NCBI GenBank assembly: GCA_019637265.1
Contig: JAHBVY010000003.1
Coordinates: 372,001-436,000, forward strand
Origin: Polyangiaceae bacterium
GTDB lineage: Bacteria; Myxococcota_A; Polyangia; Polyangiales; Polyangiaceae
Length of the DNA stretch: 64,000 nt
Reading direction: 5' to 3'
Made by a program: the position numbers and the translations under genes
Part shown: positions 45,662 to 51,406 of the stretch, piece after piece
How positions within the stretch are numbered: the stretch's first letter is position 1
How the letters are laid out: each line of letters opens with the position of its first letter
The notes under the pieces: generated by a model
What the model saw: only the letters and a program-made list of their open reading frames with translations
Told to the model about the DNA's origin: nothing
The model's database searches: none

Positions 45662-46495
45662 GTGAACAGCTCACTTGCAGGTTCGAGGCGCGGTCAGGCT
45701 CGGTTGTGGCGAGGGACGTTCGGGGTCCTGACGTTGGCGCTGGGGTACGCCGCGTGTGGGCCGGCGGCTTCGGCGGATCGCTGCACGTATGAGGGCTGGG
45801 CGGGGGAGTGTCAGCTGCGGGGCGTCACCAAGATCCGCGAGATTGAGTCGTTTCCACGCGCCTACGCCGTGTTCGAGGTGGCGTACGAGCCCACGGACAA
45901 CGAGTCGCCGCTGAGCCCGCCGACGTCGCGCTTCGAGGTGTCGATGCCAGCGGACGCAGAGGACAGCTTCCGTGACCACCTCGCGGCGTACGCACGGGTG
46001 GCCTGCCGCGTGGCGCCGGACGATCCCGAGGCGTGTCGCTCCGGGCGCCTCGCGGTGGCGGTGCCGCCCTACGAGCCGCCAGCTGTCGCTCAGCGCGCCG
46101 AGGAGCCGGTCGGCTGCCGCGCGCTCGAGACACGCGGCGCCGCCGCGCCCGACTTCCAAGCGGGGCGCACGCTGAGCCAAGAGCTCGACTTCGAGCCCAA
46201 CCAGAGCACCCTGGGACCCGCTTCGGACGCTGCGCTCCGCACGCTGGTGGCTCAGCTCCAAGGGAATCCCAAGTGGCAATGCGTGGCGGTGACCGGCTTC
46301 GTCACCTACGGTGAAGACCGCAGCCTCGCCGAAGCGCGCGCCCGCGCCGTGAAGCAGCGCCTGGTGGAGCTAGGCCTCGAAGCGTCGCGCTTCGTCACCT
46401 TCGGAGCCGCCCTCGGCGCCGCCCCTGAAGAAGACCGCATCGCCCGCCCCGAAGAGCGCCGCGTGCGCCTCAAGGTGCTGATCGAGCGTCAGTAG
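45662..46495 (+). CDS. OmpA-family peptidoglycan-associated lipoprotein
   Basis: The 277-residue product (GTG 45662) has a signal with candidate lipid Cys in ALGYAACGPA. A middle domain with four Cys (CTYEGWAGECQLRG, ACRVAPDDPEACRSG) leads to a C-terminal OmpA domain: LDFEPNQSTLGPASDAALRTLV and SLAEARARAVKQRLVELG, the pattern that binds diaminopimelate in peptidoglycan. It probably links the outer membrane to the wall. It ends just before direct repeat DR-L. Confidence 0.82.
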   Translation: MNSSLAGSRRGQARLWRGTFGVLTLALGYAACGPAASADRCTYEGWAGECQLRGVTKIREIESFPRAYAVFEVAYEPTDNESPLSPPTSRFEVSMPADAEDSFRDHLAAYARVACRVAPDDPEACRSGRLAVAVPPYEPPAVAQRAEEPVGCRALETRGAAAPDFQAGRTLSQELDFEPNQSTLGPASDAALRTLVAQLQGNPKWQCVAVTGFVTYGEDRSLAEARARAVKQRLVELGLEASRFVTFGAALGAAPEEDRIARPEERRVRLKVLIERQ

Positions 46496-46502
46496 GGCGC
46501 GT

Positions 46503-46524
46503 GGGTTGGTAGCCTCGGGAGCCG
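46503..46524 (+). repeat. Direct repeat DR-L left of HTH-ImmA/PIN module
   Basis: A 22-base sequence beginning GGGTTGGTAGC and ending TCGGGAGCCG. It matches DR-R at 48293-48314 in 20 of 22 positions. It also belongs to the GGGGGTTGGTAGC branch of the dispersed repeat. Confidence 0.75.
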
Positions 46525-46544
46525 TTGACGATGGGTGGCCCAGC

Positions 46545-47726
46545 GTGTCACGGTCCACGGAGGTGAAGGTCGCTGGTTCGTACGACAGCCTGAGCGAGCT
46601 TCGAGAGAAGCTCTTGGGGCTCCGGGTCGAGACAGTCGCCGAGGCGACTGGCATCGCTTCGGAGCGGCTGCGCGCTGTGGAGGCAGGAGCCCCCGCCTCG
46701 GTGCTCGAGCTCGAGCTATTGGGCGATGCATACGGCATCGACGCCGACGCGCTCTACGATCGGCCGATCGTGCTGGCTGACGGTTGCGCCATTGGCGCCC
46801 TCGCAAGCCTCGATGAGTTTCGTGACGTGGGTCAGCTCACCCGCGTGCGCATCGTGCGCGCAGCGAACGCGGCGCGCGATCTGATCGCGCTACGAGGGCT
46901 CCTGGGCGACGAAATCGCCGCCTTGCCAAAGCTCTCCTCGCCCAACCCAGTACAGAGCCCCTACGAGCAGGGGGCGGCCTTGGCGCGCGAGCTGAGGAAG
47001 CTGTTGGGCCTTGGTGTTGAGCCCATCGCGTCGATGCGCGATCTGGTGTCGGTGCTGCTCCCCGGTGTTCAGGTGCTCTATGCGGACTTAGGACACCAAG
47101 GGCCGGCTGGCCTCTCCTTCGCGGACGCCACGCGAGGTCCGGCGGTTGTGCTCAATCTTCGCGGCAAGAATGAGAATGCCGCGGTCCGTCGCTTCAGCCT
47201 CGCTCACGAGCTCTGCCACTTGTTGGTGGACTGGAACGACGCCCTGCCGCTCGCTTCCATCTCGGGCTACCTGAGCGACGCTGGTCTCGAGCGTGAGCAG
47301 CGTGCCAACGGCTTCGCGGTGCGTTTCCTCTGTCCAGAGACGGTGGTCTACCGGTTGCGCGACGCTCATGAGGATGAGGCGCTCCGCGTGGTGATGGGTG
47401 AGTACAAGCTGCACTACCAGGCTGCCCGGCTCTACCTTCGAAACGAGGCCAACTTCCACCTGCCTGAGCGCCTGCCGAGCCTGCTGCCCGACCCGAGCCT
47501 CGAGGCCGTCGAGGCGCCACGCGCAGTGTTGGAGTTCCCACTCCCAGAGGTACCTCCGGAGCGCCGTGGCAGCTTTGCCGAAGCTGCCGTTCGCGCTTGG
47601 TCACGCGCCTTGCTCTCTCGCGACGCCTTCGGTGAGCAGCTGAGGGTCACCGCCGGCGCTGAGCTAGAGCGTGTGGCTGACTACTTCGGCCTCGACATCC
47701 CAGAGGACGACGCGATCGCGAGCTGA
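46545..47726 (+). CDS. HTH plus ImmA/IrrE-type metallopeptidase
   Basis: The protein of about 393 residues combines an N-terminal Xre-like helix-turn-helix (LREKLLGLRVETVAEATGIASERLRAVE) with a COG2856 ImmA/IrrE-type zinc peptidase: HELCH (His221, Glu222, His225), then REQRANGFAVRFLCPE with a downstream Glu ligand. Such proteins cleave repressors or act as antitoxin-like regulators in prophages, ICEs and toxin-antitoxin pairs. The start is uncertain: GTG 46545 and GTG 46563 are candidates. A PIN-domain gene follows two bases after the stop, so the two form one unit. The pair is bounded by 22-bp direct repeats. Confidence 0.88.
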   Translation: MSRSTEVKVAGSYDSLSELREKLLGLRVETVAEATGIASERLRAVEAGAPASVLELELLGDAYGIDADALYDRPIVLADGCAIGALASLDEFRDVGQLTRVRIVRAANAARDLIALRGLLGDEIAALPKLSSPNPVQSPYEQGAALARELRKLLGLGVEPIASMRDLVSVLLPGVQVLYADLGHQGPAGLSFADATRGPAVVLNLRGKNENAAVRRFSLAHELCHLLVDWNDALPLASISGYLSDAGLEREQRANGFAVRFLCPETVVYRLRDAHEDEALRVVMGEYKLHYQAARLYLRNEANFHLPERLPSLLPDPSLEAVEAPRAVLEFPLPEVPPERRGSFAEAAVRAWSRALLSRDAFGEQLRVTAGAELERVADYFGLDIPEDDAIAS

Positions 47727-47728
47727 GG

Positions 47729-48274
47729 ATGCGGTCGGTCTTGCTCGACGCCGACGCATTCCGGTGCCTCCACGGGCTGAAGCTGCTCGACCTCGTGCTC
47801 AGCGCGCTAGCTCGCATGACGTCAGTCAGTGTGACGGAGTACATCGCCAGACATGAGCTGAACCTACTCAGTCGGGAGATCGGTCGTTTAGAGTCCTCAG
47901 GGCTACTTCGGGTCGAGATTGTGATCGCCGGAAGCGCTGCTGGGAAGCGCTTCCGTGAGTTTCGTCGCGTGGCTGACAAAGGCGAGGCCGAGGCGATCGC
48001 GTGGGCGCTTGATTTCGCCTCGGAGGAGCGCCCACTGTTCGTCACGCGCGACAAGGGCGCGACGCGCTTCGCGCAGGAACAGCGAGTTCCCGTGACCGAT
48101 GTGCTGGGTGCCATCGTGGAGGCATGCGAGCTAGGTGAGCTGGCTCCGGAGGTTGCACGCCAGGCCTTGGTTGTCTGGGATGACCCTCAAGTGCAGTTGT
48201 GCCGTCCGGCGCAGTACACCGGCCTCGACGCCGAGTGGGCGAGGCGCGTGTCCTCGCGTGCCGCCTGGGCTTAG
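47729..48274 (+). CDS. PIN-like nuclease domain protein
   Basis: The 181-residue protein shows a PIN-like pattern of acidic residues: Asp7 and Asp9 in LLDADAF, Glu37 in SVTEYI, Asp83 and the GEAEAIAWA helix (Glu86, Glu88), and Asp108 in LFVTRDKGA. PIN domains are metal-dependent ribonucleases and frequent toxins. It is translated two bases after the HTH-ImmA gene. I infer a toxin-antitoxin or defence module in which the HTH-peptidase controls the PIN protein. Catalytic activity is not proven by sequence alone. Confidence 0.82.
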   Translation: MRSVLLDADAFRCLHGLKLLDLVLSALARMTSVSVTEYIARHELNLLSREIGRLESSGLLRVEIVIAGSAAGKRFREFRRVADKGEAEAIAWALDFASEERPLFVTRDKGATRFAQEQRVPVTDVLGAIVEACELGELAPEVARQALVVWDDPQVQLCRPAQYTGLDAEWARRVSSRAAWA

Positions 48275-48292
48275 GAGCGAGATGGGGGCTGG

Positions 48293-48314
48293 GGGTTGGT
48301 AGCTTTGGGAGCCG
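48293..48314 (+). repeat. Direct repeat DR-R right of HTH-ImmA/PIN module
   Basis: GGGTTGGTAGC then TTTGGGAGCCG, two C-to-T differences from DR-L. Same orientation, 1790 bp apart, so the two repeats enclose exactly the two-gene module. Confidence 0.75.
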
Positions 48315-48441
48315 CCGTGTGGTGGCGCAGTCGCTTGGGTGGCGTCACACGACGCGTAGCGGCGCCTGATTGGCTACGAAAGGCGCGCGCTCCCCGCGCG
48401 CTGGTGCTGCCGCGAGCGGGGCCTCGTGTTAGTGTGCCGCG

Positions 48442-49389
48442 ATGCGCTCGCTCGGCTCTTGGCTCCTGTTTCCGCTGACCTTCACTGCGCTCGGCGCGCT
48501 CGGTCACCTCGCCGTGGGCTGCTCGGCGAGTGGTACGAGCGATGGCGGGCCGAATGGCGGCGGCTCGGGCGCGACGTCCGGCTCTGGAGCCTCGGGGGGA
48601 ACCGCGGGGACCGCTGGGGGTGGCTTCGGCGGCACCGGTGGCGATTTGCTAGGTGACGGCGGCGACACCACGCCCACAGGTCAGGTTTACGGACATAGTC
48701 CGGATACGCTGTATGAGGTGGAGCCCTATAGCAAGACGGTCACCGTCGTCGGGCGCTTCAATTGCTTGGGGGGCGGTGAGATGTGGGATATCGCCGTGGA
48801 CGCCAAGGGGAAGATGCTGGGGAGCGTCTCCACCGGGTTTGGTACAGGGATGCTGGTCGACATCGACCCGAAGACCGCCAGCTGCACTCACGTCGCCAAT
48901 GGCGATTTCCCCAACTCACTCGGCTACATCCCAGTCGGAGCGCTCGACCCTGATGTGGAGGCGCTGGTCGGCTACAACGTCGCGCAGTACCTCCGCATCA
49001 GGCCCGACACCGGGGAGATCTTCCCCATCGGCAATCTCAACCCGAACCCCACGGGGCAAAACTGGGTGTCCAGCGGCGACGTGGTGTCGGTGCAGGGTGG
49101 CAAGACTTACCTCACCGTCCATCTCCAGTTTGGCAGTGACACGAACGACTCCCTCGCGGAGATCGATCCAAAGACCGGCAAGGTGGTCCGCATCATCGGT
49201 CAGACAGGCTACCCACAGCTGTACGGCCTCGGTTACTGGGCGAACACCGCGTACGGCTTCAGCGCCACCGGCGTCCTCATCAGCATCGATCTCGACACCG
49301 GCGCCGGCACCCCCATCCCGCTGCCGAGCATCCCCTCCGGCTTGTCCTTCTACGGCGCCGGGACGACCACCTCAGCGCCTATTCGGTGA
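48442..49389 (+). CDS. Gly-rich lipoprotein with propeller-like domain
   Basis: The 315-residue product starts at ATG 48442, with a lipoprotein signal ending LAVGCSASG and a long Gly/Ser/Thr linker (residues 28-72), a hallmark of lipoproteins in this organism. The mature part has repeated strands and turns (TLYEVEPYSKTVTVVGRF, MWDIAVDAKGKMLGSV, LVDIDPKTASCTHVA, LAEIDPKTGKVVRIIGQTG, LISIDLDTGAGTPIPL), suggesting a beta-propeller. Function unknown. It follows the DR-R repeat. Confidence 0.75.
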   Translation: MRSLGSWLLFPLTFTALGALGHLAVGCSASGTSDGGPNGGGSGATSGSGASGGTAGTAGGGFGGTGGDLLGDGGDTTPTGQVYGHSPDTLYEVEPYSKTVTVVGRFNCLGGGEMWDIAVDAKGKMLGSVSTGFGTGMLVDIDPKTASCTHVANGDFPNSLGYIPVGALDPDVEALVGYNVAQYLRIRPDTGEIFPIGNLNPNPTGQNWVSSGDVVSVQGGKTYLTVHLQFGSDTNDSLAEIDPKTGKVVRIIGQTGYPQLYGLGYWANTAYGFSATGVLISIDLDTGAGTPIPLPSIPSGLSFYGAGTTTSAPIR

Positions 49390-51295: not shown

Positions 51296-51382
51296 GCTCA
51301 AGGGACAGCAACGAACGTGCCACGGAGGCGCGGCGAGGTCACGGTGGCCGCGGTGACTGCGGCGCCGCGCGGCTTCTGCCGC

Positions 51383-51406
51383 TGCTACCAACCCCCCCAA
51401 AAAAAT
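51383..51406 (-). repeat. Dispersed G-rich repeat, copy k
   Basis: On the minus strand GATTTTTTTGGGGGGGTTGG followed by TAGC, of the GGGGGTTGGTAGC branch. It lies upstream of the lipoprotein start. Confidence 0.6.

Follow-up and report, generated by a model that had tools for sequence, protein, structure and literature searches.

Two adjoining genes in the window, i.e., the whole 64,000-nt stretch of DNA analysed here, raise the question of what a peptidase-like protein and a nuclease-like protein encoded between two direct repeats do together, and whether these repeats are what moves them. An earlier note had seen in this layout a mobile toxin-antitoxin or defence cassette, with the peptidase as sensor/antitoxin and a PIN protein as RNase effector. 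The upstream gene (46563..47726, + strand) encodes a helix-turn-helix domain (HTH; XRE/DdrO-like) fused to Peptidase_M78 (ImmA/IrrE, RmrA-like) and is a predicted RmrA-like antitoxin/sensor on the combined evidence of Pfam, PADLOC, alignment and a structural model. The downstream gene (47729..48274, + strand) encodes a PIN-fold protein of 181 aa, a predicted RNase toxin by its AlphaFold model, PDB matches, PADLOC and alignment. As had been noted, only 2 nt separate the end of the first open reading frame at 47726 from the start of the second. Since homologues start there, the HTH gene probably begins at GTG 46563 (387 aa) and not at TTG 46506. A possible operon promoter, TTGACG-N17-TCACGG (46525..46553, + strand), was read from the sequence directly 3' of the first repeat copy, and the TTGACG-N17 layout also lies upstream of two homologues (L023 and L024); a search upstream of the pair for a conserved operator palindrome found none. 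The neighbours in the window are a methyltransferase gene, an OmpA-domain gene and a DUF6923 gene, and no integrase, phage or recombinase gene was seen adjoining the pair at this locus. Several genes of the window (near 2987, 45662, 48442 and 62991) have a TAnnnT hexamer 6-8 nt 5' of the start codon, a pattern that suggests putative leaderless promoters.

The HTH-peptidase matched Peptidase_M78 in Pfam (PF06114; E = 1.8e-8) and the RmrA profile in PADLOC (E = 1.2e-11), and on these matches it has the HTH plus ImmA/IrrE (M78) composition of the RosmerTA antitoxin RmrA. Its HExxH motif corresponds to H215, E216 and H219, with E245 as the probable third ligand of the site, and all of these residues were invariant in an alignment of seven sequences. 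In the structural model (pLDDT 89.8) the peptidase part resembled CapP and IrrE/PprI (M78 fold) and the HTH resembled DdrO at identities of 35-39%. A tblastn search of phages with the HTH protein as query gave no matches. The same genome holds a second Peptidase_M78 match (L138; G000:C16:276932-277063), located within a 455-aa open frame.

Searches of Pfam and NCBIfam found no family for the PIN protein, and none of the RmrT models in PADLOC matched it; its match there was a weak one (E = 2.6e-5) to PDC-S70, a putative defence family with a PIN nuclease (PMC12988326). The AlphaFold model (pLDDT 92.9) has a PIN fold, for which the best PDB match was VapC4 (5h4g; Z = 12.1), with HARP and VapC chains closely behind. 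Foldseek E-values were modest (1.5e-3 at best), and searching PDB sequences with the PIN profile returned nothing credible. Residues D7, D9, E43, E86, E88 and D108 were invariant among six aligned sequences, and the assignment to the PIN domain draws on both this alignment and the fold match. The earlier note had named a lack of conservation of the acidic residues as grounds for abandoning its reading; these residues proved to be conserved.

We then turn to the pairing itself, for which the earlier note had advised a look in other genomes. All seven other full-length PIN homologues (L023, L024, L025, L026, L027, L112 and L113) lie directly 3' of an HTH-M78 homologue, in the same gene order and at distances from a gap of 10 nt to an overlap of 16 nt; with the window included, an HTH-fused gene adjoins a PIN gene in 8/8 full-length pairs, which makes the pair a conserved operon. 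The homologous pairs span Myxococcota, Deltaproteobacteria and Magnetococcales, and one of them (L024) is carried by a family-level relative, G004. An HTH-M78 relative (L005) has no detectable PIN of the window's PIN family. The PIN protein of the window belongs to a compact subfamily that is unseen by Pfam and NCBIfam and whose members, in several lineages, are linked with an HTH-peptidase partner.

Among known systems, COG2856-PIN operons are predicted to be toxin-antitoxin systems, and COG2856 was found paired with PIN in 60 cases (Makarova 2009, PMC2701414). The window pair is like them in its HTH-fused COG2856-type gene, its PIN gene and its scattered distribution, whereas its PIN subfamily is not recognised by the Pfam or NCBIfam models. 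Proteins with an ImmA domain have been confirmed as antitoxins of RosmerTA, and in NetFlax they are associated with PIN-like domains (PMC10440598). With RosmerTA (RmrA + RmrT, NetFlax node D25) the pair shares the N-terminal HTH, the M78 partner and the two-gene operon, and PIN-like partners are on record for node D25 (PMC10440598). However, the window protein is only remotely similar to the RmrA profile and the predicted toxin matches no RmrT model; the toxins of that system are diverse. Since there was no RmrT match and PDC-S70 only, we did not file the pair as RosmerTA proper. CapP-CapH and IrrE(PprI)-DdrO are alike in peptidase fold, HExxH and DdrO-like HTH, but in the window a single protein combines HTH and peptidase, and its partner gene encodes a PIN nuclease. 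VapBC also has a PIN-fold toxin (VapC4, VapC21), but the PIN protein of the window is longer, only 10-20% identical, and partnered by an HTH-peptidase that is not of VapB type. The 7/7 pairing, the invariant acidic residues, the PIN fold and the position in the COG2856-PIN/RosmerTA zone all argue for the functional half of the earlier proposal, peptidase sensor/antitoxin and PIN RNase, which held up as a prediction; the other half, mobility by way of the repeats, did not. The two genes probably encode a metallopeptidase-type antitoxin and an RNA-cutting PIN toxin.

Full homologues of the pair are patchy (4/377 phylum genomes), the flanking genes are unrelated from locus to locus and mostly housekeeping in the loci scanned, and in several loci the pair has a lower GC3 than the genes around it (0.59/0.64 vs about 0.95 in L025, for example). 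In G001, a genome of the same genus, the methyltransferase, OmpA, DUF6923 and following genes occur together on one contig and the pair is absent; although the completeness of this genome is 82%, the contig runs through the syntenic place without a break. The junction is not a clean empty site, since DUF6923 is inverted there relative to its syntenic neighbours (L048, G001:C696, 2598-4394 vs 45662-49389 of the window), and a repeat copy was looked for at the junction and not found. The comparison with relatives that the earlier note had recommended gave the expected absence of the pair, but not the single repeat copy that was to mark it. Patchy spread, unrelated contexts and absence in G001 fit a horizontally moving toxin-antitoxin or defence module. 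They also bear on the possibility that the HTH-M78 protein is an IrrE/DdrO-like housekeeping stress regulator and the PIN protein a non-toxic RNA-processing enzyme, a reading consistent with the folds, which overlap with those of IrrE/DdrO and of HARP PIN proteins of the RNase P type; considering how very patchy the spread is, that the neighbourhoods change and that the pair is missing in a same-genus genome, we regard it as rather improbable.

Searches for a full PIN homologue on plasmids or viral contigs found none. Remote HTH-M78 relatives do occur on viral contigs (L116, L117, L119, L120, L124, L131 and L134), where a PIN-like gene of a different family follows at a distance of 15 nt or overlaps by 4 nt, in the same order as in the window; these PIN-like genes match PDC-S70 down to E = 5e-12. 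Comparing the profiles of the window and viral-contig PIN families gave no significant match, so we claim no common descent for the two. From its sequence and distribution, then, the module that we take to be a toxin-antitoxin operon does look horizontally acquired, but not via the flanking repeats.

The direct repeats at 46503-46524 and 48293-48314 are indeed 20/22 identical, as the earlier note had it. Their match between the 250-nt flanks exceeded 30/30 shuffles, and a degenerate 20-mer without mismatch occurs at only these two sites in the 5.7-Mb genome. Together with the absence of the pair at the G001 syntenic site, these properties would be expected if the 22-bp direct repeats belonged to the pair, as att sites or target duplications at the ends of a mobile cassette. 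However, the 10-mer GGTTGGTAGC has 66 genome copies vs 12 for the reversed control, 60 of them intergenic and in both orientations (by a simple codon-score caller), and a second box, CRCAG(T/G)C, lies downstream of 50/66 copies (offset 32 or 33 nt in 44 of them). The dispersed element is ~55 nt long and comprises a G-rich head, GGGGGTTGGTAGC, a variable GC-rich middle of ~22 nt and then GGCRCCRCAGTCRC at fixed spacing; in its strict two-box form it has 42 copies in the genome, against 1 for the reversed control, and 56 related genomes together yielded one match. One further member of strict two-box form lies in the window at 51349-51404 (- strand). The second flanking copy is a full two-box intergenic element (48286..48347, + strand; 31.9 bits), and the first (46503..46524, + strand) is the head only, near background at 10.1 bits (E = 0.034), the best reversed-window match scoring 8.2 bits. 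Both copies therefore belong to a dispersed family, as had been proposed, the first of them marginally. The ten extra bases said to be common to these two copies only are literally so, but this is meaningless: across the next 12 positions, 59 of 2145 member pairs equal or exceed them in likeness, so the flanking copies do not stand out from many pairs of members drawn at random, and in the 50 nt after that their rank is 1383rd of 2145. At such a distance, 1.35 member pairs are expected by chance and 3 were observed. None of the other 7 homologous pairs has such repeats around it; L112 has an 11-nt flank match, above 30 shuffles, in simple GC-rich sequence.

Considering this dispersed membership, ordinary likeness, chance spacing and absence around the other pairs, the repeats do not mark the limits of the pair. 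Neither element-specific repeats nor a single copy at an empty site were found, the G001 junction lacks a repeat copy and no recombinase gene adjoins, all of which makes a repeat-bounded cassette very improbable. The flanking repeats are of an ordinary kind that is scattered between genes in this genome, and not the cassette ends for which the earlier note had taken them. A promoter or terminator role was rejected because they occur in both orientations relative to genes. A REP/RAYT reading was likewise rejected, as no Y1 transposase was found in the genome and no shared fold among the copies, although the fold test is a weak one (consensus energy zero on a gapped alignment). An Rfam search of the element copies tested gave no match. 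Flanking repeats in this genome need to be checked against dispersed elements before any cassette is called.

Our main reading, to which we give a probability of about 0.7, is that of a horizontally transmitted two-gene toxin-antitoxin operon in which a peptidase switch would release the predicted PIN toxin. The upstream protein, with its DdrO-like HTH, IrrE/CapP-like zinc peptidase and conserved C-terminal region, would repress its own promoter and keep inactive the PIN nuclease that is translated along with it. The peptidase would be turned on by a stress signal, plausibly single-stranded DNA, by which PprI and CapP, both related peptidases, are activated (PMC10904395). The activated protein would cut itself or a sister copy; repression would be lifted and the PIN protein freed to cut RNA, and growth would stop. 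We infer toxicity, neutralisation, self-cleavage and trigger alike. The operon would probably have an anti-phage or DNA-damage role. A three-part system, as put forward for COG2856-PIN operons (PMC2701414), would have the peptidase cleave a separate XRE repressor/antitoxin encoded elsewhere, with the PIN protein regulated indirectly. However, the HTH-peptidase has an HTH of its own, and a non-exhaustive scan of the flanks recognised no additional XRE gene next to the pair; we consider this arrangement improbable.

Within the toxin-antitoxin reading, it is a tentative and still doubtful proposal that a single protein acts as sensor, repressor and antitoxin, and that single-stranded DNA triggers its peptidase to destroy the protein in cis or trans, thereby inducing and releasing a toxin of this PIN subfamily. 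If true, such a one-protein switch would combine the switch known from CapP/CapH or PprI/DdrO with the action of a toxin-antitoxin pair. The two genes offer a small and clean system for asking whether RmrA-like proteins free their toxins by self-cleavage.
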